From Streptomonospora nanhaiensis (GTDB lineage Bacteria; Actinomycetota; Actinomycetes; Streptosporangiales; Streptosporangiaceae), in NCBI RefSeq assembly GCF_013410565.1, contig NZ_JACCFO010000001.1:4402001-4466000 (forward strand): a stretch of 64,000 bases of DNA, given 5' to 3'. The notes under the pieces are model-generated. The model worked only from the letters and a program-made list of their open reading frames with translations. It did not search any database and was not told the origin of the DNA. Below, one piece after another: positions 9,157 through 64,000 of the stretch; the first letter of the stretch is position 1; each line of letters starts with the position of its first letter. The position numbers and the translations under genes were made by a program.

Positions 9157-9315
9157 CGCCGCCGTCCACCCCTTCCGCTTCCGCCGGCGCCCGTGCCCGC
9201 GGCGGGCCGGTGCCGTCCCGGACGCTACCGCCCGCCGGGGCGGCGGCTCCACCGGATTTCGCGGCGGGCGGGGGTGCCGGCGGTCCGGCGGGCGGTCCGG
9301 CAGGAGGGACCGGTG

Positions 9316-13985: not shown

Positions 13986-15626
13986 ATGGGACGGGTGAGC
14001 GCGCCCGCACGTCCCTCCCCGAACCGCAGCGGCGGCCGGCCCCGCCGCGAGCCCTCCCAGGCGCGCGGCGCCGCCCGCGCGCCGCGCGGCCGCCGCCCGC
14101 CCCCCGCCGACGACCAGCCCCGCCCCCTCTACACCGCCGGCGGCCTGGCCGCCGCCTGGTCGGCCGGCATCGGCCTGGCCGTGCTGATGACCCTCACCGT
14201 GGCCGGGTGGGTGGCCGCGCCCCACGGGGCGTTCGGCGAGGACATCGGCGAGGTCCTGCGCGCCGCCGTGCAGGCGTGGCTGGTGGGCCACCACGTCGGG
14301 TTCACCATCCCCGGCGGCGGCGTGTCCCTGCTCCCGCTGGGCCTGGTCGTGCTGCCCGGCCTGCTGCTGTACCGCGCGGGCCGCTGGCTGGCCCGCAGTT
14401 GCGAGCTGCCCCGGCTGCGCCACCTGTTCCGCGCCGCGCTCGCCATCGCCGGGCCCTACGCCGCCATCGCCGGCACGCTCGCCCTGGTCGGCCGGACCGA
14501 GGTGGTGCGGCCCAGCGTCGTCCAGGCGCTCATCGCCGGGTTCGGCGTGGCGTTCGTGGCCGGGGGCGCCGGCGTGCTGTTCCAGCTGCTCAAGGACAAG
14601 GGCATCCCCAAACGGCGGCTGCTGGACCTGATGCCCGACCGCCCCCGCTCCCTGCTGGTGGGCACCCTCAGCGCCACCGGCACCCTGCTGGCCACCGGCG
14701 CGCTGCTGTTCGGCGCCGCACTGGCGAGCGGCATGGACCAAGCGGCCGCGCTCACCGGCGAACTCGCGCCGGGCCTGGTGGGCGGCGCGCTGCTGCTGCT
14801 CGTCCAGTTGCTCTACCTGCCCAACGCCGTGGTGTTCGGCCTGGCCTACGCCGTGGGGCCGGGTTTCGCGGTGGGCACCGGCACGGTCGTCGCGCCGACC
14901 GGGGTGTCGGTCGGCGCCGTCCCGATTCTGCCCATGCTCGCGGCGCTGCCCGACAACGGTCCGGCGCCGGTGGTGTCGCTGGCGGCGCTGGCGGTGCCGT
15001 TCCTCGCCGGCGCGGTGGGCGGGGTGCTGACCCAGCGCAGCGCGCCGGCGGTGGTCAGCGAGTCGGCGCCGCTGTGGGGGTTCGTCTGCGGGGTCACGAC
15101 CGGCCTGGTGTGCGCGGCGCTGTCGCTGCTGGCCGGGGGCTCGATGGGCGCCGAGCGGCTGTCGGAGGTCGGGCCGTCGGCCTGGCAGGTGGGGCTGATC
15201 ACCGCGCTGGAGGTCGGGCTGGCCGCGGCCATCGCCGCGTGGGTGGCCAACTGGCGCTACTACCGGCGGGCCCACGCCGGGGCGGCGCCGGACGAGGCCG
15301 GGGCGGAGCCCGAAGAGGAGGAGGGCGCGCCCGGCGACGAACCGCCGCCCGCGCCCGCGCGGCGCCGCGGCCGTCCGGTGCTGCGCGTGGTGCCCGACCC
15401 CGGCGACGCCGAGCCCGCGCCCGAACCCGGCCCCCGCCCGCGGAGCGGTCCCGGGCCCGTCGAGCAGGCCCCGCCGAAGGCGGCGCCGCGCTGGCGGCTG
15501 CGGCTGCCCGCGCTGCGGCTGCGCCGCCGCCGCGCGGCCGACGACGACGGCGAGGAGTTCTACGGCATCACCTACGAGGCCGACTCCGCCCCCGCCGCCC
15601 CCGCCGACGACGGCCCCGGCCGCTGA
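13986..15626 (+). CDS. DUF6350-type polytopic membrane protein
   Basis: 546 residues from ATG 13986. After ~55 basic Arg/Pro residues there are about ten hydrophobic segments (for example LAAAWSAGIGLAVLMTLTVAG and VGGALLLLVQLLYLPNAVVFG), then a ~120-residue charged cytoplasmic tail rich in Glu, Pro and Arg ending YGITYEAD. Its place between sucD and purN is conserved in Streptomyces-like genomes, where such proteins are annotated as DUF6350 or PerM-like cell-division proteins. Function is not established. No clear ribosome site was found for the ATG. Confidence 0.75.
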   Translation: MGRVSAPARPSPNRSGGRPRREPSQARGAARAPRGRRPPPADDQPRPLYTAGGLAAAWSAGIGLAVLMTLTVAGWVAAPHGAFGEDIGEVLRAAVQAWLVGHHVGFTIPGGGVSLLPLGLVVLPGLLLYRAGRWLARSCELPRLRHLFRAALAIAGPYAAIAGTLALVGRTEVVRPSVVQALIAGFGVAFVAGGAGVLFQLLKDKGIPKRRLLDLMPDRPRSLLVGTLSATGTLLATGALLFGAALASGMDQAAALTGELAPGLVGGALLLLVQLLYLPNAVVFGLAYAVGPGFAVGTGTVVAPTGVSVGAVPILPMLAALPDNGPAPVVSLAALAVPFLAGAVGGVLTQRSAPAVVSESAPLWGFVCGVTTGLVCAALSLLAGGSMGAERLSEVGPSAWQVGLITALEVGLAAAIAAWVANWRYYRRAHAGAAPDEAGAEPEEEEGAPGDEPPPAPARRRGRPVLRVVPDPGDAEPAPEPGPRPRSGPGPVEQAPPKAAPRWRLRLPALRLRRRRAADDDGEEFYGITYEADSAPAAPADDGPGR

Positions 15627-53299: not shown

Positions 53300-54307
53300 A
53301 TGTCGTCGCGTCCCGACCCCTCGGAGATCGAAGCCGTCCTGCTCGGTGGCGAGGCGCGCTATACGCGGGAGGAGGCGGTGCGGTTGGCCGGGGCCTCCAA
53401 CGACTTCACCAAGCGCGTCTGGCGGGCGCTGGGGTTCGCCGCCCGGGGCGAGGACGCCGTGGCGTTCACCGACGGCGACGTCGAGGCGCTGCGCGTCACC
53501 TCGGAGCTGATGAAGAACGGCGTCCTGGACGAGGACGCCGCCATCCGCATGGCGCGGGCGATGGGCCAGACCATGGCGCGCCTGGCCGAGTGGCAGACCA
53601 GCATCCTGTCGACCCTCTCCTACGAGCCGCAGGACCGCGCCGCCGACGACGGCCACGGCCCCCTGGTGGGGCTCGCCCAGGAGCTCATGCCCGACATCGA
53701 GAACCTGCTGCTCTACATCTGGCGGCGCCAGCTCGCGGCCTCGATCGCGCGGCGGATCGCGTTCGCGCGCAGCAGCGACGACGCCGCGCCCACCTACTTC
53801 CCCCTGGCGGTGGGGTTCGCCGACCTGGTGTCGTTCACCACGCTCAGCCGCGAGCTGGACGAGGTGGAGCTGGCCGAGGTGGTCGAGGGCTTCGAGTCCA
53901 CCGCCACCGACATCGTGGCCTCCGGCGGCGGGCGCGTGGTCAAGACCCTCGGCGACGAGGTGCTCTACGTCGCCAACACCGCACTCCAGGCCGCCGAGAT
54001 CGCCCTGCAGCTCGCCGACGGCGTCAAGACCCACATAGAGGTCCCCGACGTCCGCGTGGGGCTGGCCTACGGTCCGGTGCTCGCGCTGCTGGGCGACGTG
54101 TTCGGCACGACGGTGAACCGCTCGGCGCGGCTGACGTCCTTCGCCCGCCCGGGCACCATCCTGATCGACGAGGCGCTGGCCGACCAGCTGCGCGACGAGC
54201 CCGCGCTGCAGGTGGTGGCGGTGCGGGCGCGGCACGCCCACGGCCTGGGCCAGCTCCAGCCCTACGCGCTGCGCCGCAGCTACGAGCCGGCCGACCCCTC
54301 GGTCTGA
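53300..54307 (+). CDS. cya: Class III adenylate/guanylate cyclase
   Basis: 335 residues. The N-terminal ~150 match the regulatory domain of Rv1264-type cyclases (YTREEAVRLAGASNDFTKRVWRALGF; GVLDEDAAIRMARAMGQTMARLAEWQ). The catalytic domain has both metal Asp (VGFADLVSFTTLS; LGDEVLYV), the adenine-selecting Lys (VVKTLGDE) and the transition-state Asn-Arg (TTVNRSARL), so it should be active and probably makes cAMP. In Streptomyces the homologous cya also lies near carboxylase and biotin ligase genes. N-terminal domain homologues are pH-sensitive. Confidence 0.92.
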   Translation: MSSRPDPSEIEAVLLGGEARYTREEAVRLAGASNDFTKRVWRALGFAARGEDAVAFTDGDVEALRVTSELMKNGVLDEDAAIRMARAMGQTMARLAEWQTSILSTLSYEPQDRAADDGHGPLVGLAQELMPDIENLLLYIWRRQLAASIARRIAFARSSDDAAPTYFPLAVGFADLVSFTTLSRELDEVELAEVVEGFESTATDIVASGGGRVVKTLGDEVLYVANTALQAAEIALQLADGVKTHIEVPDVRVGLAYGPVLALLGDVFGTTVNRSARLTSFARPGTILIDEALADQLRDEPALQVVAVRARHAHGLGQLQPYALRRSYEPADPSV

Positions 54308-54803: not shown

Positions 54804-55331
54804 ATGGCGAGTAGCCTCACCGAGCGCGACCGGCTCAACGAGCGTTTCTCCTTCTGGGACAACAACGGCGACGGCCAGATCGACCGATCGGACTTCGAGG
54901 CCGAGGCGCGCGAGATCATCCGGAGCCTCAACGAGGACGAGACGTCCCCCCGGGCGCGCGCGGTCCTCGACTCCTACACCCAGATGTGGGACTACCTGGC
55001 CAGCAAGGCCGGGAAGAGCTCGCTGAACGCCGAGGAGTTCGCCCAGGTCGCCGAGGCCGAGATCATCAGCCAGGGCGACGCCGGCTTCAGCCGCGTGCTG
55101 CGGCCGACCATCCGGGCGATCGTGGACCTCCTCGACACCGACGGCGACTCCCGGGTCAGCCCGGACGAGTTCAAGCGCTGGCTGGACGCCATCGGTGTGC
55201 AGTCCGACAGTGCCGAGATCTTCCAGCAGATCGACACCAACGGCAACGGCTACCTGACCGTGGACGAACTGCTCGCCGCCGTCCGCGACTACCACCTCGG
55301 GCGCAGCGACGTGCCGCTGCTGGGCCGCTGA
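54804..55331 (+). CDS. EF-hand calcium-binding protein (calerythrin-like)
   Basis: 175 residues with four EF-hand positions as in calerythrin/CabD. Loop 1 is D19-D30 (DNNGDGQIDRSD), loop 2 (about 60-75) is degenerate, loop 3 is D111-E122 (DTDGDSRVSPDE) and loop 4 D144-E155 (DTNGNGYLTVDE). Loop 1 ends in Asp instead of Glu, which tends to favour tighter geometry or Mg binding. No signal peptide: a cytoplasmic Ca buffer or sensor. GAGGAG precedes the ATG. A 16-bp hairpin follows. Confidence 0.93.
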   Translation: MASSLTERDRLNERFSFWDNNGDGQIDRSDFEAEAREIIRSLNEDETSPRARAVLDSYTQMWDYLASKAGKSSLNAEEFAQVAEAEIISQGDAGFSRVLRPTIRAIVDLLDTDGDSRVSPDEFKRWLDAIGVQSDSAEIFQQIDTNGNGYLTVDELLAAVRDYHLGRSDVPLLGR

Positions 55332-55673: not shown

Positions 55674-56090
55674 TCAGTCCTCCGCGAACGGGGCCGGGAC
55701 GAACTCGATCCGGTCCTCGGGCGCCAGTCGGAGGTCCGGCCCCGTCAGCGTGCGCGGCGTGCGCACCAGCACGTTGTAGTGGTTGGGGAAGTGGCAGGCG
55801 TCGAACCCCAGGACCGTGCCGACCGTGCGGCCGTTGACCCGCAGTTCGTCGCCGCGGTCGATCACGCCGGCGCGGTCGATCTCGGCGAAGCCGAGGAACC
55901 CCACCCGGTCGATCCGCGTGCCCGCCGCCGTGCCGGTGTGGTCGGTGGTGACCAGCTCGTGCACCTCGCCCGCCCGCACGCAGCGGCTGGCGAACGGCTC
56001 CAGCGACATCCCGCGGTCCGTGCGGCGGTGCACCAGCACTTTGACCACCGTGGCCGCCACCGTGCGCTTGGCCCCGTCCTCGCCGATCAC
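55674..56090 (-). CDS. DUF6917-like small protein
   Basis: 138 residues from GTG 56090, overlapping the upstream gene by 4 bases. The core VVKVLVHRRTDRGMSLEPFASRCVRAGEVHELVTT (seen in pieces) with IDRVGFLGFAEIDRAGVIDRGDEL and GTVLGFDACHFPNHYNVLVRT resembles DUF6917 proteins that I recall from actinobacterial natural-product clusters; this recall is uncertain. All-beta composition with one Cys-His pair (DACHFPNHYN). No enzymatic motif recognised. Last gene of the six-gene operon. Confidence 0.6.
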   Translation of the reverse strand: MIGEDGAKRTVAATVVKVLVHRRTDRGMSLEPFASRCVRAGEVHELVTTDHTGTAAGTRIDRVGFLGFAEIDRAGVIDRGDELRVNGRTVGTVLGFDACHFPNHYNVLVRTPRTLTGPDLRLAPEDRIEFVPAPFAED

Positions 56091-57052
56091 GCGCGTCCCC
56101 CCGCCCCGGTGGCCGCCGACGCGCCGGACTCCGGCGCCCGCTCCGCGCGGTAGGCCGCCTCGACCAGCGCCAGGGCCGGCACGCCGCCGTCGCCGCCCGC
56201 CGGGGCGCGCCCGCGCACGCGGTCCTCGAAGTCGGCCAGGATCGCGGCGTACTCGTGCCACAGCGAGCCCTTGAAGCCCGGGTGGCCGGCGAGCATGTCG
56301 GCGCCGTCGGTGCCGCCATCGGCCAGCCGCACCAGCACGTCCTTGCGCTCGCCCGGAAAGGCCCAGTCCAGTTCGACGGTCGCCGCTGCGCCGTCCGCCG
56401 AGGCGAGGCGCACCCGCGCCCGGCGGTCCAGGCCCGCGGGGTCGCGCTCGACCTCGGCGCCGACCACCTCGACCTCGCCCAGCAGCAGCCGTACCAGGTC
56501 CAAGGCGTTGGGCCCGTTGTCGGCGACGCAGCCGCCCCCGCACCGGAGCGGGTCGAGGTACCAGGCGTCGCCGCCGATGTGGTCCTCGATCCGCTCCAGA
56601 TAGCGCACGGTGAGCCCGGTGACCGGGGCGCGCCCGGCCAGGCGGCCCGCCAGGGCCCGCACGGCGGCGTTGTGGCGGCGGTGGAACGCGGTGCGCAGCA
56701 CCACGCCGCGCCGCTCGGCCGCCGCCGCCAGCGCCTCGGCGTCGGGCAGGGCCGTGGCCAGCGGCTTCTCCACGCAGACCGGGAGTCCGGCGGCGACCGC
56801 GTCGCCGGCGACGGCGGCGTGCAGGTGGTTGGGCACCGCCACCACGACGGCGTCGAGGCCGCCGGCGGCCAGCAGGTCGCGGTGGTCGCGGTGGCAGGGC
56901 ACGGTCGCGGCGAAGGGCGCCAGGGCCTCGGGGGAGGGGTCGCACACGGCCGCCAGGCGCAGCGACGGGCGCTCGCACAGCGCCCGGACGTAGAACCGCG
57001 AGATGGCGCCCAGGCCGATGAGCCCCACGCGCAGCGGTGCGGTCGGTGCCAT
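56087..57052 (-). CDS. Gfo/Idh/MocA-family dehydrogenase with atypical catalytic region
   Basis: 321 residues. The NAD(P) Rossmann motif VGLIGLGAISRFYVRAL and the signature VCVEKPLATAL are clear. In the second domain the usual Gly-Gly...Asp-x-Gly-x-His reads GGGCVADNGPNALDLVRLLLG, so the conserved catalytic His appears to be Asn. ELDWAFPGERKDVLVRLADGG and KGSLWHEYAAILADFEDRV follow. It overlaps the Ldh-family gene stop (TGATG). May oxidise a sugar or cyclitol, or act in the reductive direction with another proton donor. Confidence 0.85.
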   Translation of the reverse strand: MAPTAPLRVGLIGLGAISRFYVRALCERPSLRLAAVCDPSPEALAPFAATVPCHRDHRDLLAAGGLDAVVVAVPNHLHAAVAGDAVAAGLPVCVEKPLATALPDAEALAAAAERRGVVLRTAFHRRHNAAVRALAGRLAGRAPVTGLTVRYLERIEDHIGGDAWYLDPLRCGGGCVADNGPNALDLVRLLLGEVEVVGAEVERDPAGLDRRARVRLASADGAAATVELDWAFPGERKDVLVRLADGGTDGADMLAGHPGFKGSLWHEYAAILADFEDRVRGRAPAGGDGGVPALALVEAAYRAERAPESGASAATGAGGRA

Positions 57053-58176
57053 CACACGCCTCCGATCAGCGCGGGCGCGGCGGTGCCCGCGGCGGCGGCC
57101 GCCGCCGCGAGTTCGCGGTAGACGGCCTCGGCCAGCGGCACCCCGGTGCGGCGGTGCTCGGCCGCCCGCTCGGCCTCGGGCCAGCCCGGGTAGCGCACGG
57201 GTGAGGCGGGATCGGTCGGCGGGCAGGCCAGGACCTCGGCGAACAGGGTGCGGGCGTCGTCGGCGAAACCCGCGCGCAGCGCCGCAGGAGCGAAGGCCGC
57301 CGCCAGGAACCCGATGTCGTCGTCGGCGGGGGCCGCGCCGCCGGCGCCGGGGTCGGGCCAGGGTCCCAGACCCGCGCCCGGGACCAGGGCGGCCAGCACC
57401 TCGACCGCCAGGCCGAGCCCGAAGCCCTTGTAGGCGCCCTCGCCCTGGCCCAGCCAGCGCAGGTGCGCCTCGCCCCGGTCGAAGGCGGCGGGGTCGGTGA
57501 CGGGGCGGCCGAGGTCGTCGGCCAGCCAGCCCTCGGGGATGGCGCGGCCGGCGCGCGCGGCCTCGCGCACGCGACCCGTTGGCACGGCCGTGGTGCTCAT
57601 GTCCAGCACGAACGGGCGGCCGGGCAGGGCGGGCGCGGCGACGGCCAGGGGGTTGGTGCCCAGCAGCGGGCGCCGCCCGCCCGGCGGGGGCGCGATGCGC
57701 TGGCGCCCGCAGTTGGCGGCCACGATCCCGACCATGCCGTGCTCGGCGGCGCGGGCGGCGTGGTGGCCGGCGCAGCCGAAATGGGTGGCTCCGCGCACCC
57801 ACACCAGGCCGGCGCCGTGGTGGCGGGCGCGCTCCACGGCGAGGTCCACGGCGGCGCCCGCCTGCCACAGGCCCAGCGCGCGGCGGGCGTCCACGAGCAG
57901 GCAGGCGCCCAGGTCGGAGAGCACGCGGGGCTCGGCGGCGGGGTCGATGCGCCCGGAGTGCAGCGCGGGCAGGTAGATCCGCGCCAGGTTGGCAAGGCCG
58001 TGGGAGCGCACCCCGGTGAGGTCGCCGTGGCACAGGGCCGCGGCCGCGGCGTCGGCGCGGTCGGGGGCAAGGCCGCGCGCGGCGAGGATCCGCGCGGTGC
58101 AGGCCGCCAGGTCGGCGTGGGCCACCCGCACGTCGCTGCGCGCGGGGACCGGGGGCGCGGTGTCCGATCGTGTCAC
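57052..58176 (-). CDS. Ldh-family NAD(P)-dependent dehydrogenase (malate/L-lactate dehydrogenase type 2)
   Basis: 374 residues from GTG 58176 (CGGAG upstream), overlapping the previous stop (GTGA). Family marks: LCHGDLTGVRSHGLANLARIY, the catalytic His in RGATHFGCAGHHAARAAEHGMVGI, GTNPLAVAAPALPGRPFVLDMSTTAVPTGRVREAARAG (in pieces), GEGAYKGFGLGLAVEVLAAL. Homologues reduce 2-oxo acids or cyclic imines (ureidoglycolate, 2,3-diketo-gulonate, pyrroline carboxylate). In this operon a 2-oxo or imine intermediate is likely. Confidence 0.88.
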   Translation of the reverse strand: MTRSDTAPPVPARSDVRVAHADLAACTARILAARGLAPDRADAAAAALCHGDLTGVRSHGLANLARIYLPALHSGRIDPAAEPRVLSDLGACLLVDARRALGLWQAGAAVDLAVERARHHGAGLVWVRGATHFGCAGHHAARAAEHGMVGIVAANCGRQRIAPPPGGRRPLLGTNPLAVAAPALPGRPFVLDMSTTAVPTGRVREAARAGRAIPEGWLADDLGRPVTDPAAFDRGEAHLRWLGQGEGAYKGFGLGLAVEVLAALVPGAGLGPWPDPGAGGAAPADDDIGFLAAAFAPAALRAGFADDARTLFAEVLACPPTDPASPVRYPGWPEAERAAEHRRTGVPLAEAVYRELAAAAAAAGTAAPALIGGV

Positions 58177-59462
58177 GATGCTCCGTTCCGCTGTCGGTGG
58201 TCGTCGGCGAAGGCGAGCAGCAGCCGGGCGACGGTGTCGGCGAAGGCGTCGAGGTCGGCCAGGTCGGCGAACTCGCCCTGGGCGTGGGCGTTGTTGGCGG
58301 CGAGGTCGCCGGGGCCCAGCACGGCGGCGGCGCCGGGCACCCCGGCCATCCATATGGCGTCGCAGGTGAATCCGCGCGCGTCGGCGGGCCAGGGCTCGAC
58401 CCCGGCGCGCTCCATCAGGTCGCGCAGCCAGGGGTCGGGGCCGTCGAGGGTGGGCAGGCCGCGCTTGAGCCAGTCCAGGCGGGTGATGGCGCGGGCGTCG
58501 GCCGCCGTCAGGGCGAAGGGCGGCGCGGCGGCGAAGCGCCGGGAGAACTCCGCCAGGCCGGAGTCCAGGGCCGCCTCGACGGCCGCGCCCAGGCGCCGGC
58601 CGGCGGCCGAGGACGCGTAGGCGAGGTTCAGCAGCAGGTCGCCGCGGCCGTAGACGCGGTTGTGCAGCGTGCCGGTGTGCAGCCCGGCCACGCACACGGT
58701 GCCGCCGGGGTGGTGGGCCAGCTCCTCGGCGAGGTACTGGGCCAGGAAGCCGAGCAGCACGGTGGCGTTGTGGCCCTCGCCGGGGCGGTCGTCGATGGAG
58801 TCGCGGCCGCGCACCCGCACCCGCGCGGTCATGGCGGCGGTGCAGCGCGGCAGGTAGCGCAGGCCGGTGGGCTCGCAGAAGACGTTGAGGCGGCCCACGA
58901 GGCCGCGCTCCACCAGGGGGCGGGTGCCGAACACGCCCATGGCGCCGCCCTCCTCTCCGGCGACCGCCTGCACGAGCACCCCGACCTCGGTGCCGACGGC
59001 GGGGTCGGCGGCGCGGGCCGCCCGCAGGCCGGCCAGCAGCGCCACGGCCGGGCCCTTGGCGTCGGCGGCGCCGCGCCCGTGGAAGCGGGTGCCGTCGAAG
59101 GACACCGGCTCGTCGCCGGCCACGGTGTCCAGGTGCACGTTGAACATGGCGGTGGCGGCGCGCGGCAGCGGCGGGCCCAGGCGCAGCACCAGACTGGGCT
59201 GGTCGGCGAGGAACGCGGGGTCGGCCGCGGCGCGGCGCACGGCCTCGGGGACCTCGGGGCGCTCCAGCTCCGCGGGGTCGGGCGCGCCGTGGTGCACCAC
59301 CACGCAGCCCGCCTCGGCGGCGGCCTCGGCGTAGGTGCGCTGGGCCTGGCGCAGGCGCGGCGGCGGGGCGCCGGGCCCGGTCTCCAGCGGCCCGGCGGTG
59401 GGCAGCTCCAGCAGGCGCAGCAGGAGGCGGTGGTCGGCGGGGGTGAGCCGGGCGGTGCTCAC
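58173..59462 (-). CDS. M20-family metallopeptidase (ArgE/DapE/LysK-like deacylase)
   Basis: 429 residues from GTG 59462. Metal ligands are in [13 protein letters not shown] (His-x-Asp), [18 protein letters not shown] (Asp), [11 protein letters not shown] (Glu-Glu), [12 protein letters not shown] (Glu) and [12 protein letters not shown] (His-Gly-Glu). CEPTGL resembles the EPS/EPT motif of [LysW]-lysine hydrolases and N-acetyl-lysine/ornithine deacylases. It probably removes an N-acyl or carrier protecting group from an amine made in this pathway (inference). Four-base overlaps with both neighbours. Confidence 0.86.
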
Positions 59463-60478
59463 GGCGCCCCCCGGCGCACCAGTCCCACCGCACCGCCCGA
59501 CCAGCCGGGCGCGGCGGGCACGACCACGCGGTCGACCAGGCGGCGCAGCGCCTCGCCGGCGGCGGTGAACCCGGCGGGGTCGCCGGACAGGGCCGTGCCG
59601 GGCTCGTGCGGGCGCAGCGCCAGGTGCGGTTCGATCGACCACACGCCCTGGTATCCGGCGGCCAGCAGCATGCGCAGGCAGTCGGCCACCCGCGCCTCGC
59701 CCTGGCCGGGGACGGTGTAGACCGTGCCCTGGGGGGTGGAGCGGGCGTCCTTGACGTGGACGTGCGCCACCCGGGCGGCGATGTCGCCGAGCAGGTCGGC
59801 GGCGCTGTAGCCGTGGGCGATCCCGTTGCCGGTGTCGAAGAGCAGGCCCAGCGCGGGGCTGGCGACGGAGTCGAGGAGGTCGAGCATGCGCTCGGCGGAG
59901 TCGGCGGCCCAGCCCGCGCAGTTCTCGACCAGCAGCCGCAGCCCGCGCCGCTCGGCGAGGTCGCACAGGCGCCGGGTGCGGTCGAGGACGCGGCGGCGCC
60001 ACTCGTGCTCGGGCAGGCCGTCGTTGGGATAGGACATGACGCGGACGCGGTCGGTGCCCAGGGCGGCGCAGCGGTCGGCCAGGACCGCTAGCTCGGCCAG
60101 GTCGGGGCCGGGGTCGCCGGTGACGGGCCGGGCCCAGTTGCCGATCCGGGAGTCCACGCAGCACACCACGACCCCGCGCGCGGAGAGTTCGCCGGCGACT
60201 CGGGCGAAGGCGGTGTCGTCGAGGTCGGCGACGGCGGTGCCGCCGACGCTGCGCAGCTCCAGGTGGCGCCAGCCGAGCGTGTCGAGGGCGGCGAGCTGGG
60301 TGGCGAGGTCGGGCCCGGCCTCGTCGCCGATGCCGGCGTAGGCGATGGCGGCGGTGGGCCCGGACGCGGCGGCCGGCGGCGCCGCCGAGGGCGCCGTCGG
60401 GGCTGCGGGCACCGCGGCCACCGTGTCGGCTGCGGGCGCGGCCGGGGGCGCCGCGGCGATCGGGGCGGGCTCAGGCAC
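59459..60478 (-). CDS. Sugar isomerase/epimerase, xylose-isomerase-like TIM barrel
   Basis: 339 residues; the first ~45 are an Ala/Pro-rich lead-in (a later start near IAYAGIGDEAG is possible). Barrel strands carry metal ligands: LLVENCAGWAAD (Glu), LLFDTGNGIAHG (Asp), VAHVHVKDA (His) and VWSIEPHLALRPH (Glu), the layout of AP_endonuc_2-type hexulose or inosose isomerases (IolI, IolE, EboC-like). It overlaps the upstream gene by 8 bp. A step on an inositol- or sugar-derived ketose fits the dehydrogenases beside it. Confidence 0.85.
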   Translation of the reverse strand: MPEPAPIAAAPPAAPAADTVAAVPAAPTAPSAAPPAAASGPTAAIAYAGIGDEAGPDLATQLAALDTLGWRHLELRSVGGTAVADLDDTAFARVAGELSARGVVVCCVDSRIGNWARPVTGDPGPDLAELAVLADRCAALGTDRVRVMSYPNDGLPEHEWRRRVLDRTRRLCDLAERRGLRLLVENCAGWAADSAERMLDLLDSVASPALGLLFDTGNGIAHGYSAADLLGDIAARVAHVHVKDARSTPQGTVYTVPGQGEARVADCLRMLLAAGYQGVWSIEPHLALRPHEPGTALSGDPAGFTAAGEALRRLVDRVVVPAAPGWSGGAVGLVRRGAP

Positions 60479-61523
60479 GGGGGGGCACCGCCTCGGTAAG
60501 GGCGGGGCCGGCGGCGCGGCCGGCGCCGGTCGCGGGGGCGGCGCACACCCGCTTGGCCTCGGCGAGCAGGCGCACCGTGCGCACCTGGATGTCGAACAGG
60601 TCGGTGATGGGGCGGCGCCCGGCGAAGTGCTCGTAGGCGCGCAGCATGAAGTCGGCGAGCGCGTCGTCGTGGAAGACCAGGTGGGAGGACCCGTCCTCGG
60701 TGGTGGTGCGCAGTTGGGCGGTGTCGTCGTCCTCGCTGCAGGGGTAGTGGCCCACCAGCGTGGCGGTGTCGAACTCCAGGCGGATGCGGCGCTCGCGGGT
60801 GGGCGACATCAGGTCGGAGAAGATCTCGGTGCGGGTACCGGAGCGGTGGTCCAGGACGAGCCGGGCCTGCCCCAGGCGGGGGACCTCGACGTTGCCCAGG
60901 GCCATGTCGGTACACGCCGCGGCGCGCACCCGCGCGGGGCCGGCCAGCGCCAGCGCCAGCCCGACCGAGTGCGGGAGCTCGACGTCGAAGACGGTGGGGT
61001 GGGCGCGGCTGGTCAGGGAGCGGACGAATCTCGGCTTGGTCTGCAGGACCGAGATGGCGCGCAGGGCGCCGAACGCGCCCTCGCGGGCGGCGGCGAGCAG
61101 CCGGTAGCTCAGCGCGCTGGTCAGCCACTGCGCGACCACGACGAGGTCCAGGCCGTGGCGGCGGCGGGCGCCGAGCACGGCCGCGAGTTCGGGTTCGTCG
61201 GGCGCCAGGGGCTTCTCGACCAGGATGCGGCGGTAGCCCAGGGCGGCGAGGTCGGCCATCAGGCGCGAGCGGACCCCGGGCGGGGTGCACAGGTGGACGA
61301 CGGTGCGGGCGGGGTCGACCAGCGCCGCGGCCTCGGCCAGGGCGGTCACGGGGCGGGTGCCCGGCAGGGGCGGCTCGCCCCGGAGCGCCCGGATGTCGTG
61401 GGTCAGCACGGGGCCGGGCGAGAAGAGGCGCCGGCGGCCGGCGAGGGCGCGGGCGCGGTTCAGCGCCGGGAGGTGCAGCCCCCGCCCCGAGCGGCCCAGA
61501 CCGACGACGAGCGTGTGCAGCAT
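60471..61523 (-). CDS. Gfo/Idh/MocA-family dehydrogenase
   Basis: 350 residues from ATG 61523 (GGAG 5 bases upstream). LVVGLGRSGRGLHLPAL is the NAD(P) motif (Gly-x-Gly-x-x-Gly), RILVEKPLAPDEPE the EKP signature. FDVELPHSVGLALALAG retains a His in the C-terminal domain, unlike the paralogue at 56087. The segment FHDDALADFMLRAYEHFAGRRP is the usual C-terminal helix. First gene of the leftward operon, so it sets promoter position in the 630-bp divergent region. Confidence 0.87.
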   Translation of the reverse strand: MLHTLVVGLGRSGRGLHLPALNRARALAGRRRLFSPGPVLTHDIRALRGEPPLPGTRPVTALAEAAALVDPARTVVHLCTPPGVRSRLMADLAALGYRRILVEKPLAPDEPELAAVLGARRRHGLDLVVVAQWLTSALSYRLLAAAREGAFGALRAISVLQTKPRFVRSLTSRAHPTVFDVELPHSVGLALALAGPARVRAAACTDMALGNVEVPRLGQARLVLDHRSGTRTEIFSDLMSPTRERRIRLEFDTATLVGHYPCSEDDDTAQLRTTTEDGSSHLVFHDDALADFMLRAYEHFAGRRPITDLFDIQVRTVRLLAEAKRVCAAPATGAGRAAGPALTEAVPPRA

Positions 61524-62154
61524 GGCTACTCCGTCCCCTTTTCCGGTTTTCGGGCGCACGGCGGCGGCACCCGGTCCAGGTGAAGAATGCGATTTTGGGG
61601 GTGTGGTCCGACTGGCGCCCTGATTTTCGGTCAGGTGGAGGTCGCGGTGGAATTCCGTGGTCGGACCCCAGGTTCACCGGGTGTGCGGTGTTTGTCAAAT
61701 GTCCGCAAATTGCCGTCTGGCGATATGTCCGACGTCCGGCCTTGCAGGGGTGCATACGTGGGCATGATCGGACGAACGGGATGTTGTCCCTGTACTGCGC
61801 CGATAGGTCGGATTGGCGGAGGATTCGCTTCCGCTGTTGTGTTCCGCCTTGCCGACTGTGCACACTTTTCCCGTGTGCTGCGTTAGTCTCCGGAAGGCGT
61901 GGGGAATAACCGCGAACGCTGTGGATTGTCGGCGGAGATAAACCCCGAAACGCCGATGTCTCGATAACCCGGGCAACCCTCGCAACCCAGGTGAACCCGG
62001 TAAATCCGGAAGACCCGACCAGCCTTATCGGTTCCGATTCAGCCGAATCCGGCCCGCGATCGCGGTCGGACCCGGCTCGTCCGTTCCGCCCGCCCTCGAC
62101 AAGCCCTCGTCACCCGTGCCCCCGGGCACGCGATCCGTCCGGCAGGGATGCACC
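61524..62154. promoter_or_regulatory. Divergent control region of the putative biosynthetic cluster
   Basis: 630 bp, AT-richer than the flanks, no credible gene. It contains GGTCCGACT (61605-61613) and GGTCGGACC (61659-61667), two copies of GGTCnGACc; GGTCGGATT (61806-61814) is a third relative. GCACAC-N7-GTGTGC (61860-61878) is a perfect inverted repeat, and four AACCC boxes lie at 61966-61998. Confidence 0.6.
61966..61998 (+). repeat. Phased AACCC repeats
   Basis: AACCC begins at 61966, 61975, 61984 and 61994, i.e. at 9-10-bp steps, about 157 bp before the first aminotransferase start. Near helical phasing of direct repeats is typical for cooperative activators, for example SARP proteins. 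Confidence 0.6.
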
Positions 62155-63405
62155 TTGGACACCCCCGCTCCCGCGCCCGCTCCGCGGGCGCCCGCCGCCG
62201 TACCGACCACCACCGCCACCCCGCCCGCCGCGGACCCGCCGCCCGCGCCGCCCGTCCCGTTCTTCAGCCAGCGGGCCGCGTTCGCCGAGCTGTGGCCGCG
62301 GGTGCGGGCGCACTGCGCCGACGTGCTCGACCACGGCAAGTTCTCCCACGGCCGCAAGGTCGCCGAACTGGAGGCCGTGCTCGCCGCCTGGACCGGCGCC
62401 CGCCACGTCATCGGCGTCAACTCCGGCACCGACGCCCTGGTCCTGCTGCTGCGCGCCTGCGGCCTCGAACCCGGCGACGAGGTCGTGGTGCCCGCCTACA
62501 GCTTCGCGGCCACGGCCACCTCGGTCGCGCTGGCGCGCGGCCGGCCGGTCTTCGCCGACATCGACCCCGCCACCTACGCGCTGGACCCCGAATCCGCCGC
62601 CGCCGCCGTCACGCCGCGCACCCGCGCGGTCATGCCCGCCCACCTGTTCTCGCGCACCGCCGACCTCGACGCGCTGGCCGGCCTCGCCCGCCGCCGGGGG
62701 ATCACGCTCGTCGAGGACAGCGCCGAGGCCGTCGGCATGCGCTGGAACGGCGTGCACGCCGGGCTGCTGGGCGCCGGCGGGGTGCTGTCGTTCTTCCCCG
62801 CCAAGACCCTGGGCGCCATCGGCGACGCCGGCGCCGTGCTGACCGACCGCGACGACATCGCCGACACCGCGGCGGCGCTGCGCCACCACGGCCGGCGCGG
62901 CGCCACGCTCGACAACTTCCCCGGCATCGCGACCCAGACCAGCCTGCCCGGCCTCAACAGCAAGATGGACGACCTCCAGGCGGCCGTGCTGCTGGCCAAG
63001 CTCCCCGGCCTGGCCGACGACATCCGCCGCCGCGCCGACCTCGCCGCCGCCTACTCCGAGCGGCTGCGGGGCGTGCCCGGGGTGCTCCGGCTGCCCGACC
63101 ACGCGCCCGGCCCCCACGGCGACCCCCCGGTCTTCTACGTCTACCTGGTCGAGGTCGCCGACCGCGACGCGCTGGCCGCCTTCCTGGCCGACCACGGCGT
63201 GGGCACCGAGGTCTACTACCCCGTGCCGCTGCACCTCCAGCCCTGCTTCGCCCACCTCGGCCACGGGCCCGGCGACTTCCCCCGCGCCGAGGCCGCCTGC
63301 GCCTCGGCCCTGGCGCTGCCGCTCTACCCCGGCCTCGCGCTCGCCGACCTCGACCGCGTCTGCGCCCTGATCAGCCGCTTCTACACCGGAAGGGAGCGGG
63401 TGTGA
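62155..63405 (+). CDS. DegT/DnrJ/EryC1/StrS-family PLP aminotransferase
   Basis: 416 residues from TTG 62155 (AGGGA 6 bases upstream; GTG 62116 is possible). HGKFSHGRKVAELEAVLAAWTGARHVIGVNSGTDALVLLLRA (in pieces), DEVVVPAYSFAATATSV, ADIDPATYALDPES, LVEDSAEAVG and the PLP-binding Lys in LSFFPAKTLGAIGDAGAV (about residue 216) mark a sugar or cyclitol aminotransferase. NSKMDDLQAAVLLAKL and GVGTEVYYPVPLHLQPCF are typical C-terminal motifs. It transfers an amino group from Glu or Gln to a keto-sugar. Overlaps the second aminotransferase. Confidence 0.93.
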   Translation: MDTPAPAPAPRAPAAVPTTTATPPAADPPPAPPVPFFSQRAAFAELWPRVRAHCADVLDHGKFSHGRKVAELEAVLAAWTGARHVIGVNSGTDALVLLLRACGLEPGDEVVVPAYSFAATATSVALARGRPVFADIDPATYALDPESAAAAVTPRTRAVMPAHLFSRTADLDALAGLARRRGITLVEDSAEAVGMRWNGVHAGLLGAGGVLSFFPAKTLGAIGDAGAVLTDRDDIADTAAALRHHGRRGATLDNFPGIATQTSLPGLNSKMDDLQAAVLLAKLPGLADDIRRRADLAAAYSERLRGVPGVLRLPDHAPGPHGDPPVFYVYLVEVADRDALAAFLADHGVGTEVYYPVPLHLQPCFAHLGHGPGDFPRAEAACASALALPLYPGLALADLDRVCALISRFYTGRERV

Positions 63406-64000
63406 TCCCCTTCTTCCCCCCGGACCTGTTCGCCGAGGACCGCGACGCCCTGCTTGAGGCGGTGCGCGAGGTGGGCACCGACCCCGAGCAGCGGTTCATC
63501 CTGGGCCGGCGCACCGCCGCGTTCGAGGACGCGCTGCGCGAGCGGCTGGGTGCCGCCGACGTCGTGGCCTGCTCCAGCGGCACCAGCGCGCTCACCCTGG
63601 TGCTGACCGCCATGGGGATCGGCCCCGGCGACGAGGTCGTGGTGCCGGCGTTCGGCTGCGCGCCCCTGGCGGCCGCGGTGGCGGTCCTGGGCGCGGTGCC
63701 GGTCTTCGCCGACATCGACCCCTGGACCATGGTGGCCGACCCCGCCGCCGTCGAGGCCGCCGTCACGGATCGCACCGCCGCCCTCATGCCCGCGCACATG
63801 TTCTCGGTCATGGCCGACATGCCGCGCATCGCCGACACCGCCCGGCGCCACGGCCTGCGCCTGGTCGAGGACTCCGCCGTCGCCCAGGGCGGGGTGCTCG
63901 GCGGGCGCCCGGCCGGGCTCTGGGGCGAGGCGGGCGTGTTCTCGTTCGTGCAGGTCAAGACGTTCGGCACGGCCGGCGAGGGCGGCGCGGTCGTCACCCG
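63402..64000 (+). CDS. Second DegT/StrS-family aminotransferase, cut by window end
   Basis: Starts at GTG 63402 (AAGGGAG 6 bases upstream; GTGA overlap with the first). 199 residues are visible. FFPPDLFAEDRDALLEAVREVG, ACSSGTSALTLVLTAMGIGPGDEVVVPAFGCAPLAAAVAVLG (in pieces), FADIDPWTMVADPAAV, LVEDSAVAQGG and VFSFVQVKTFGTAGEGGAVVT contain the PLP Lys (about residue 185). It is a paralogue of, not a fragment of, the preceding gene: sequence differs throughout. The remaining half lies beyond base 64000. Confidence 0.92.
   Translation, partial: MIPFFPPDLFAEDRDALLEAVREVGTDPEQRFILGRRTAAFEDALRERLGAADVVACSSGTSALTLVLTAMGIGPGDEVVVPAFGCAPLAAAVAVLGAVPVFADIDPWTMVADPAAVEAAVTDRTAALMPAHMFSVMADMPRIADTARRHGLRLVEDSAVAQGGVLGGRPAGLWGEAGVFSFVQVKTFGTAGEGGAVVT

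Follow-up and report, generated by a model that had tools for sequence, protein, structure and literature searches.

At the right end of the 64,000-nucleotide stretch of Streptomonospora nanhaiensis DNA analysed here (hereafter, the window), eight genes lie in two divergent groups, and the question they raise is whether they form the edge of a biosynthetic cluster and, if so, what that cluster would make. An earlier note had described six leftward overlapping genes and two divergent overlapping DegT genes, and had read them as the edge of an uncharacterised cluster for a doubly aminated sugar or cyclitol. All eight were found at the positions it gave, with overlaps of 4–8 bp, and no description, name or product of such a cluster was found in the open-access papers searched.

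Gene calls were made with a home-made codon-usage caller rather than taken from a standard annotation. The minus strand carries IDH1, a divergent Gfo/Idh oxidoreductase (60471–61523, ORF open from 61559, assigned by family-level matches), a TIM-barrel protein resembling sugar isomerases/epimerases (59459–60478, caller start 60421; AP_endonuc_2, 1.3e-30), an M20 metallo-deacylase (58173–59462; Peptidase_M20, 7e-18), an Ldh_2-type oxidoreductase (57052–58176; Ldh_2, 5.1e-96), IDH2, another Gfo/Idh oxidoreductase (56087–57055; Pfam Gfo/Idh, 4.5e-18), and a DUF6917 protein of 138 amino acids that is predicted to be all-beta (55674–56090; PF21891, 1.1e-56). Overlaps are 8 bp for IDH1/TIM barrel and 4 bp for TIM barrel/M20, Ldh_2/IDH2 and IDH2/DUF6917; that of M20/Ldh_2 is 4 bp only with an inferred GTG start at 58176, the caller's start at 58131 leaving a gap. 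On the plus strand, the DegT aminotransferase AT1 (62116–63405, caller start 62155; DegT, 7.3e-102) overlaps by 4 bp a second one, AT2 (63402–64000; DegT, 1.9e-55 for the in-window part), which is cut by the window end and stops in the genome at window-equivalent position 64535. The intergenic region between the two groups (61560–62115, no strand) is presumed from its position to hold the promoters; a promoter search of it gave no sigma-70-like site, and no Rfam family reached gathering score there. An EF-hand protein of the calerythrin type (54804–55331, plus strand, 175 amino acids) forms the left border of the cluster, as judged from its EF-hand matches and co-occurrence. The neighbouring nucleotide-cyclase gene (53300–54307) was tried as a member and rejected, with no match of at least 60 bits in 80 related loci.

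These 80 loci were the best of 244 related stretches found by a DUF6917 scan, ranked by similarity to the DUF6917 of the window, so that all counts below lean toward close relatives; all were from actinomycetes. The complete core of IDH1, TIM barrel, M20, Ldh_2, IDH2, DUF6917, AT1 and AT2 was present in 73/80, and a grouping of the same eight genes in that many relatives is beyond chance. Six of the seven incomplete loci were truncated, either by a contig end (L054, L067, L089, L112 and L131) or by the fetched edge (L102, with AT2 just outside), and the remaining one, L062, was without aminotransferases. One Saccharopolyspora carries a diverged second copy (L193), a single operon with all eight functions at 34–54% identity, and in the genome G477 the core is divided between two contigs that complement each other. 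L040, which was considered as a minimal independent three-gene version, was rejected because the genes completing its core were found elsewhere in that genome, on a separate contig. Genome G176 has IDH1, AT1, AT2 and UbiA, the other five core genes not being found in the 20 kb taken, and in the plasmid copy L134 no aminotransferase was annotated or recognised within 20 kb. By gene content, the core recurs as a tightly coupled set and is one edge of a larger cluster.

Extension past position 64000, as the earlier note had proposed, showed that the cluster goes on for about 10 kb in the same genome. In window-equivalent coordinates this half holds a UbiA prenyltransferase (64733–65719), a flavin oxidoreductase (65716–67068), an AMP-ligase (67055–68617), a CoA-transferase III (69249–71192), a second AMP-ligase (71335–73041), a methyltransferase (73038–73865) and a small secreted protein (74006–74329, minus strand). 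The flavoenzyme is of the amine oxidase/HpnE type, its HpnE match of 83.9 of 283 bits being under the curated cut-off. UbiA was found at 47/80 of the relatives' loci and the flavoenzyme at 43/80; AMP-ligases, a CoA-transferase and methyltransferases likewise accompany the core in many hosts. A nucleotide-sugar dehydrogenase adjoins the core at 38/80 loci, and the sequence fetched for the other 42 showed none; in the window genome it is not adjacent, and a 58% homologue lies about 41 kb off. The one NDP-sugar dehydrogenase scanned was over the subfamily cut-off and under every UDP-sugar-specific cut-off, and UDP-sugar-specific matches among the scanned cluster-flanking genes of relatives (n = 8) were mostly under cut-off as well. 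In a second type of locus (10/80), which is without EF-hand, the core is accompanied by at least one gene of the MEP pathway or for a polyprenyl synthase (DXS in 8, IspG in 7, IspH in 6, polyprenyl synthase in 6). At 12/80 loci no EF-hand and no MEP gene was seen, and the cluster of the window likewise gave no MEP-gene match.

Both aminotransferases keep the PLP lysine. Their mean identity within a locus is 41%, compared with 66% within each type, and in a tree built from every third of 81 two-gene entries (n = 27 including the window, AT1/AT2 labels by best match) they formed two separate deep clades of 27 each. For both, the best solved relative is 2oga, which we take to be DesV, with WbpE (226 bits for AT1 and 201 bits for AT2) and QdtB close to it by score rank. 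The entry 7b0d, named glutamine--scyllo-inositol transaminase, is among the better matches (214 and 191 bits). NtdA, the 2-deoxy-scyllo-inosose aminotransferases and AHBA synthase (132 and 120 bits) rank below 2oga, WbpE and QdtB, StsC not being named in the lists; 2oga and WbpE exceed the 2-deoxy-scyllo-inosose aminotransferase 2c7t by 76 to 117 bits.

IDH1 of the window alone gave no Pfam or NCBIfam match at 1e-3. Its Gfo/Idh label holds because 32 of 40 aligned members of its family match PF01408 and a search with the profile of that family retrieves structures of Gfo/Idh enzymes (best 3.7e-7). The Gfo/Idh family is marked by an E-K-P motif and a D...H pair, and in the alignment of 40 sequences K104, P105 and H185 are invariant and E103 and D180 nearly so. 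IDH2 has D-N-G-P-N, with each residue in at least 95% of 92 sequences, where the usual motif is D-x-x-x-H, with Asn at the place of the expected catalytic His. It matches 3q2k, presumably WlbA, weakly (1.9e-17), and its best NCBIfam model is inositol 2-dehydrogenase (6.8e-15, 54.8 of 355 bits). The DUF6917 protein is fused to IDH2 in L040 and L193. Its structure model (pLDDT 86.9) matched no PDB fold with E ≤ 0.001, and its profile gave 0 matches to PDB sequences at E ≤ 1. DUF6917 also occurs outside the core: in Thermomicrobium it adjoins a TPP enzyme, with LysX nearby, and in S. spinosa a carbamoyltransferase and an ATP-grasp protein lie in its vicinity.

M20 enzymes bind metal and catalyse through HxD, D, EE, E/D and H residues, and in an alignment of 16 loci plus the window the corresponding H69, D71, D93, E129, E130, E156 and H352 were invariant (17/17). 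The profile gave 0 matches to PDB sequences at 1e-10; by fold comparison the model is nearest ArgE and DapE. The best NCBIfam model for the TIM barrel is myo-inosose-2 dehydratase (1.5e-12, 47.6 of 290 bits), and its match to QuiC is weak (6.1e-5).

The EF-hand protein matches the calerythrin family over its full length with the EF-hand loops retained, its best PDB match being calerythrin itself (1nya, 4.1e-44). In Saccharopolyspora, EF-hand and DUF6917 occur in the identical 12/22 genomes; no protein in these genomes is identical to calerythrin (best 69%), S. erythraea itself lying outside the sample. In the class sample, EF-hand matches better than 1e-40 and DUF6917 occur in the identical 6/296 genomes, the line at 1e-40 having been drawn after seeing a gap down to 4e-23, and some EF-hand match at 1e-10 occurs in 37/296; in one of the six, G477, the two genes are on different contigs. 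In the family, 26/27 EF-hand genomes also carry the cluster, and in G073 the EF-hand stands without an IDH1 match, but AMP-ligase and methyltransferase relatives lie some 9 kb from it. Conversely, 7 of the 33 IDH1-bearing genomes (33/250 in the family) are without an EF-hand match at 1e-25: G020, G090, G173 and G218 belong to the MEP or polyprenyl-synthase type, G080 ends at a contig edge, G244 (L173) looks decayed, and G176 is the genome with five core genes missing from the stretch taken. In the Saccharopolyspora loci L068, L069, L103 and L110 the EF-hand gene lies about 3 to 5 kb outside the fetched edge. On this co-occurrence, the EF-hand gene at 54804–55331 is part of the cluster and tracks it. 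Its product probably senses or buffers calcium for the pathway or for product handling.

We propose, at a probability of about 0.5 and with the chemistry read from protein families, that the window holds the left half of a secondary-metabolite cluster, shared by many actinomycetes, for a sugar acid carrying two amino groups, which many of the hosts would couple to an isoprenoid. A UDP-(N-acetyl)hexose would be oxidised at C6 to the uronate, each of the two Gfo/Idh enzymes would generate a ring ketone, and the ketones would be converted to amines by AT1 and AT2. The TIM-barrel and Ldh_2 enzymes may provide isomerisation and redox adjustment, the ArgE/DapE-type M20 enzyme would take off an N-acyl group, and DUF6917 would act together with IDH2, to which it is fused in L040 and L193. 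UbiA would then join the aminated sugar acid to a prenyl diphosphate, and the prenylated product would be oxidised, methylated and acylated. Against this scheme stand the weak 3q2k match behind a WlbA/WbpB-type role for IDH2, the Asn of this enzyme at the expected catalytic His, the fact that no glycosyltransferase for a nucleotide sugar was seen in the cluster of the window, the dehydrogenase that is non-adjacent here and was not found at 42/80 loci, and also G176, the plasmid copy L134, DUF6917 outside the core and the sub-cut-off HpnE match.

The two aminations suggested earlier fit the two Gfo/Idh enzymes and the pair of intact aminotransferases from separate deep clades, and the higher scores of the latter with nucleotide-sugar enzymes lean tentatively to a sugar over a cyclitol. 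In a diaminocyclitol route of the inosamine type, IDH2 and the IolE-like barrel would take inositol or inososes as substrates, while the aminotransferases would aminate ring ketones, as for streptidine or fortamine. The top NCBIfam models of both enzymes and the 7b0d scores speak for it, but the 2c7t deficit, the frequently adjoining nucleotide-sugar dehydrogenase and the lack of any match between proteins encoded in the window's cluster and cyclase, kinase or amidinotransferase families make it rather unlikely. The curated IolG and IolE models are far under cut-off, and the catabolic operon that the earlier note had set against its own reading was not seen, as far as inositol genes are concerned.

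UbiA enzymes usually prenylate aromatic acids, which, with the QuiC match, the fold of the M20 enzyme near amino-acid deacylases and the AMP-ligases, would suit a polar diamino acid or AHBA-like aromatic unit made by DegT and Gfo/Idh enzymes on a shikimate- or lysine-type substrate, with M20 removing a carrier or acyl group. This is quite improbable given the low AHBA synthase scores and the lack of any match to shikimate-pathway, LysW- or LysX-type families in the window's cluster. The M20 enzyme, previously called LysK-like, has LysK at fold rank 38 and the [LysW]-lysine hydrolase model at 37.6 of 363 bits, one of 20 matches listed, all under cut-off; a LysW/LysK carrier route was rejected, and no evidence was found for the N-protected amino-acid branch once suggested. 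The UbiA family also includes decaprenyl-phosphoribose synthase, and together with WbpE-like aminotransferases and the nucleotide-sugar dehydrogenase this could point to a pathway for a cell-envelope sugar or a prenyl-linked glycolipid, and not for a secreted metabolite, the least probable of these readings. Against it, the core genes are patchily distributed (IDH1 in 33/250 family and DUF6917 in 6/296 class genomes), no glycosyltransferase or acetyltransferase Pfam family was found in a scan confined to proteins of the window's cluster, and the largest gap between cluster genes in the compact S. spinosa copy L175 is at most 719 bp; a polysaccharide locus, also foreseen as a contrary outcome, was rejected on the last two grounds.

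The EF-hand partner, the prenyl-transfer half outside the window and the relatives' nucleotide-sugar dehydrogenase are absent from the earlier note. A tentative extension is possible but more doubtful than the scheme itself: calerythrin-type EF-hands may belong specifically to a new class of clusters for prenylated, doubly aminated sugar acids, with DUF6917, of an unrecognised all-beta fold, partnering an unusual Gfo/Idh enzyme in a catalytic or gating role, and with calcium controlling the pathway or product handling. The cluster, its core present in at least 73 actinomycete loci, ties together a widespread building block, a DUF recurrently fused to an oxidoreductase, and calerythrin. The last is known by structure, and passages of PMC10574481 and PMC4053335 that mention no cluster describe it as a buffer, or putative buffer, of calcium; the link puts its role within a putative pathway, open to direct testing. 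It also offers genome mining an entry point to a family of products that are probably aminosugar-isoprenoid hybrids.

Among known systems, calerythrin of Saccharopolyspora erythraea (1NYA) shares the EF-hand type. WbpA-WbpB-WbpE and WlbA-WlbE form the UDP-2,3-diamino uronate pathway, and the present loci may resemble WbpA/B/E in the nucleotide-sugar 6-dehydrogenase (38/80 loci), Gfo/Idh and DegT enzymes, WbpE scoring with the top solved relatives for both aminotransferases; they differ in having two Gfo/Idh and two DegT enzymes plus TIM barrel, M20, Ldh_2 and DUF6917, and, in the window's cluster, no acetyltransferase or glycosyltransferase family match. The Gfo/Idh plus DegT logic is also that of NtdABC for kanosamine and of the streptidine/2-deoxystreptamine pairs, whereas the aminotransferase scores with NtdA and the 2-deoxy-scyllo-inosose aminotransferases are lower and the gene set is another. 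MEP-pathway or polyprenyl-synthase genes, found at 10/80 core loci, resemble those of the phenalinolactone and brasilicardin diterpenoid clusters, but here they accompany an aminated-sugar core with DUF6917, and the cluster of the window has UbiA and the flavoenzyme.

The earlier note described eight genes, six reading leftward and two of DegT type reading rightward, as the edge of a larger cluster; all eight are present at G000:C1:4402001-4466000 in the 6.28-Mb window genome, with overlaps of 4 to 8 bp (that between the M20 and Ldh genes hinges on which start is taken), and the larger cluster was borne out by further genes past the window end. In window-equivalent coordinates, which continue the numbering beyond 64000, the second aminotransferase gene, AT2, ends at 64535, and the genes past the window end include those for UbiA, a flavin oxidoreductase of the amine oxidase family (top NCBIfam match HpnE, under the cut-off), two AMP-ligases with a CoA-transferase III protein between them, a methyltransferase after the second ligase, and a small secreted protein without a Pfam match on the minus strand (74006-74329; 14006-14329 in the fetched locus L009). 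The left start of the cluster is an EF-hand gene of calerythrin type (54804-55331, plus strand), adjoined by a nucleotide cyclase-like gene (53300-54307, plus strand) that had no match of at least 60 bits at any of 80 related loci and is not conserved with the cluster.

These loci were obtained by scanning a species-representative genome collection with DUF6917, which gave 244 related stretches, and the best 80 of the 244 were fetched. By their titles the 80 hosts were Streptomyces, Kitasatospora, Lentzea, Saccharothrix, Saccharopolyspora, Amycolatopsis, Actinomadura, Nocardiopsis and other actinomycetes, and the closest named relative in the scan was Streptomonospora mangrovi, with a DUF6917 protein 94% identical. 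All eight core genes occurred together in 73 of these best 80 loci, and the order IDH1-TIM-M20-Ldh-IDH2-DUF6917 was, as judged by eye, nearly always kept. Of the seven incomplete loci, five (L054, L067, L089, L112 and L131) sit at contig ends, a sixth (L102) is truncated where the fetched stretch stops, its contig carrying AT2 just outside, and at L062 no aminotransferases were found within reach. The most compact view came from S. spinosa (L175), where 18 gene types stand within less than 20 kb with a largest gap of 719 bp: the core, EF-hand, secreted protein, UbiA, flavoenzyme, AMP-ligases, CoA-transferase, methyltransferases and a nucleotide-sugar dehydrogenase. The cluster is patchy: IDH1 turned up in 33 of the 250 family genomes, and DUF6917 in 6 of the 296 class genomes. 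Among the scanned genomes, G477 carries the core between two contigs of complementary gene content, and the 20 kb taken from G176 showed only IDH1, AT1, AT2 and the UbiA-side genes. One further locus (L173, G244:C30) seems to be a decayed cluster: it has the secreted protein, fragmented IDH1 and TIM genes, an AMP-ligase and a methyltransferase, and none of the remaining core genes was found.

The EF-hand gene accompanies this core in a clear pattern of co-occurrence. The top solved relative of its product was calerythrin (1nya, 4.1e-44), which is described in passages of two papers (PMC10574481, PMC4053335) as a buffer, or putative buffer, of calcium. Within the genus to which the Saccharopolyspora rosea genome belongs, a calerythrin-type gene was present in 12 of 22 genomes (E <= 1e-40) and DUF6917 in the identical 12; in 11 of these the two stand on one contig with 88 to 15,197 bases between them, and in the twelfth each lies near a contig start. 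A protein identical to calerythrin was present in none of the 22 (best 69%), among which S. erythraea is not included. At class level, matches better than 1e-40 were confined to the same six of 296 genomes that hold DUF6917 (G000, G030, G088, G174, G432 and G477), this line being placed at the gap above the next best match (4e-23), and 37 genomes had some match at 1e-10. In the family, 27 genomes had the EF-hand gene (E <= 1e-25), 26 of them together with IDH1, always on the same contig and about 5 to 7 kb apart. The hypergeometric tails of co-occurrence (1.5e-6, 1.1e-12 and 8e-28 for genus, class and family, respectively) are too small as probabilities because genomes share ancestry. Across the 80 loci, the EF-hand gene was present at 58 and MEP-pathway or polyprenyl-synthase genes at 10, never together; of the 12 loci with neither, four (L068, L069, L103 and L110) have the EF-hand gene just beyond the fetched stretch. 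Relatives of the small secreted protein were present at 32 loci, 29 of which have the EF-hand gene.

Judged from sequence, the recurring core has two intact aminotransferases, two Gfo/Idh oxidoreductases and an N-deacylase fold, joined by a prenyl-transfer half and the EF-hand partner. AT1 and AT2 share a mean identity of 41% inside a locus and 66% within each type between loci, form two separate clades of 27 each, and keep the PLP-site lysine. By PDB score, 2oga, which we take to be DesV, was nearest to both, WbpE, QdtB and perosamine synthetase were close, and the NtdA, deoxy-scyllo-inosose and AHBA enzymes were further away. The top PDB match of IDH2 was 3q2k (1.9e-17), presumably WlbA. Gfo/Idh enzymes usually have D-x-x-x-H at the position where IDH2 has D-N-G-P-N, each residue of which is at least 95% conserved (n = 92 sequences); IDH1 is a divergent Gfo/Idh enzyme. 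Metal-site residues are retained in the M20 enzyme, whose model (pLDDT 88.8) was nearest to ArgE and DapE; LysK ranked 38th. DUF6917 was modelled as all-beta with good confidence and matched no solved fold at E <= 0.001. A nucleotide-sugar dehydrogenase is encoded at 38 of the 80 loci, and a 58% homologue lies roughly 41 kb away in the window genome.

In the pathway that we propose, a nucleotide sugar would be oxidised at C6, undergo two ketone-forming oxidations with a transamination after each, then isomerisation and redox adjustment followed by N-deacylation, and finally be prenylated by UbiA and tailored. To this whole reading, in which the order of steps is inferred, we give a probability of about 0.5. 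The core may instead belong to a cyclitol, an amino-acid or aromatic, or an envelope-glycolipid pathway.

Diverged and stray copies were also observed. Another Saccharopolyspora genome has a diverged second copy (L193, G535:C1:5082001-5100000), in which a single operon encodes all eight core functions; IDH2 and DUF6917 are fused there, as they also are in L040, and the first gene is one of tryptophan synthase alpha type (103-909). Since a TrpF-type gene lies about 10 kb off as well, an indole may be joined to the core in this lineage. On a plasmid of Streptomyces sp. NBC_00490 (L134, 19938-22265), DUF6917 lies within a 775-residue gene annotated dxs and thus appears to be fused to DXS; no aminotransferase was annotated or recognised in the 20 kb around this core copy. 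Outside actinomycetes, a Thermomicrobium roseum plasmid has a solitary DUF6917 gene (L135, 11890-12357) whose neighbours are a TPP enzyme gene and one of the proline racemase family, with LysX near. Around the second DUF6917 of S. spinosa (L194, G519:C2:957001-976000, near 9300) are genes for a carbamoyltransferase, an ATP-grasp protein and a PALP enzyme that by eye resembles threonine synthase; this may be a further cluster.

Streptidine, AHBA, inositol-catabolic and LysW systems were ruled out by the tests made, and nothing on DUF6917, or on a gene set like this one, turned up in the open-access library searched. The cluster is a biosynthetic one that combines known enzyme families in a way for which no published example was found there, and a calcium-protein partner of such a cluster is unexpected. 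Of known routes, we compared it with WbpA-WbpB-WbpE, which its logic resembles; however, no polysaccharide context was seen in the cluster, and its gene content and context are different from those of that route.
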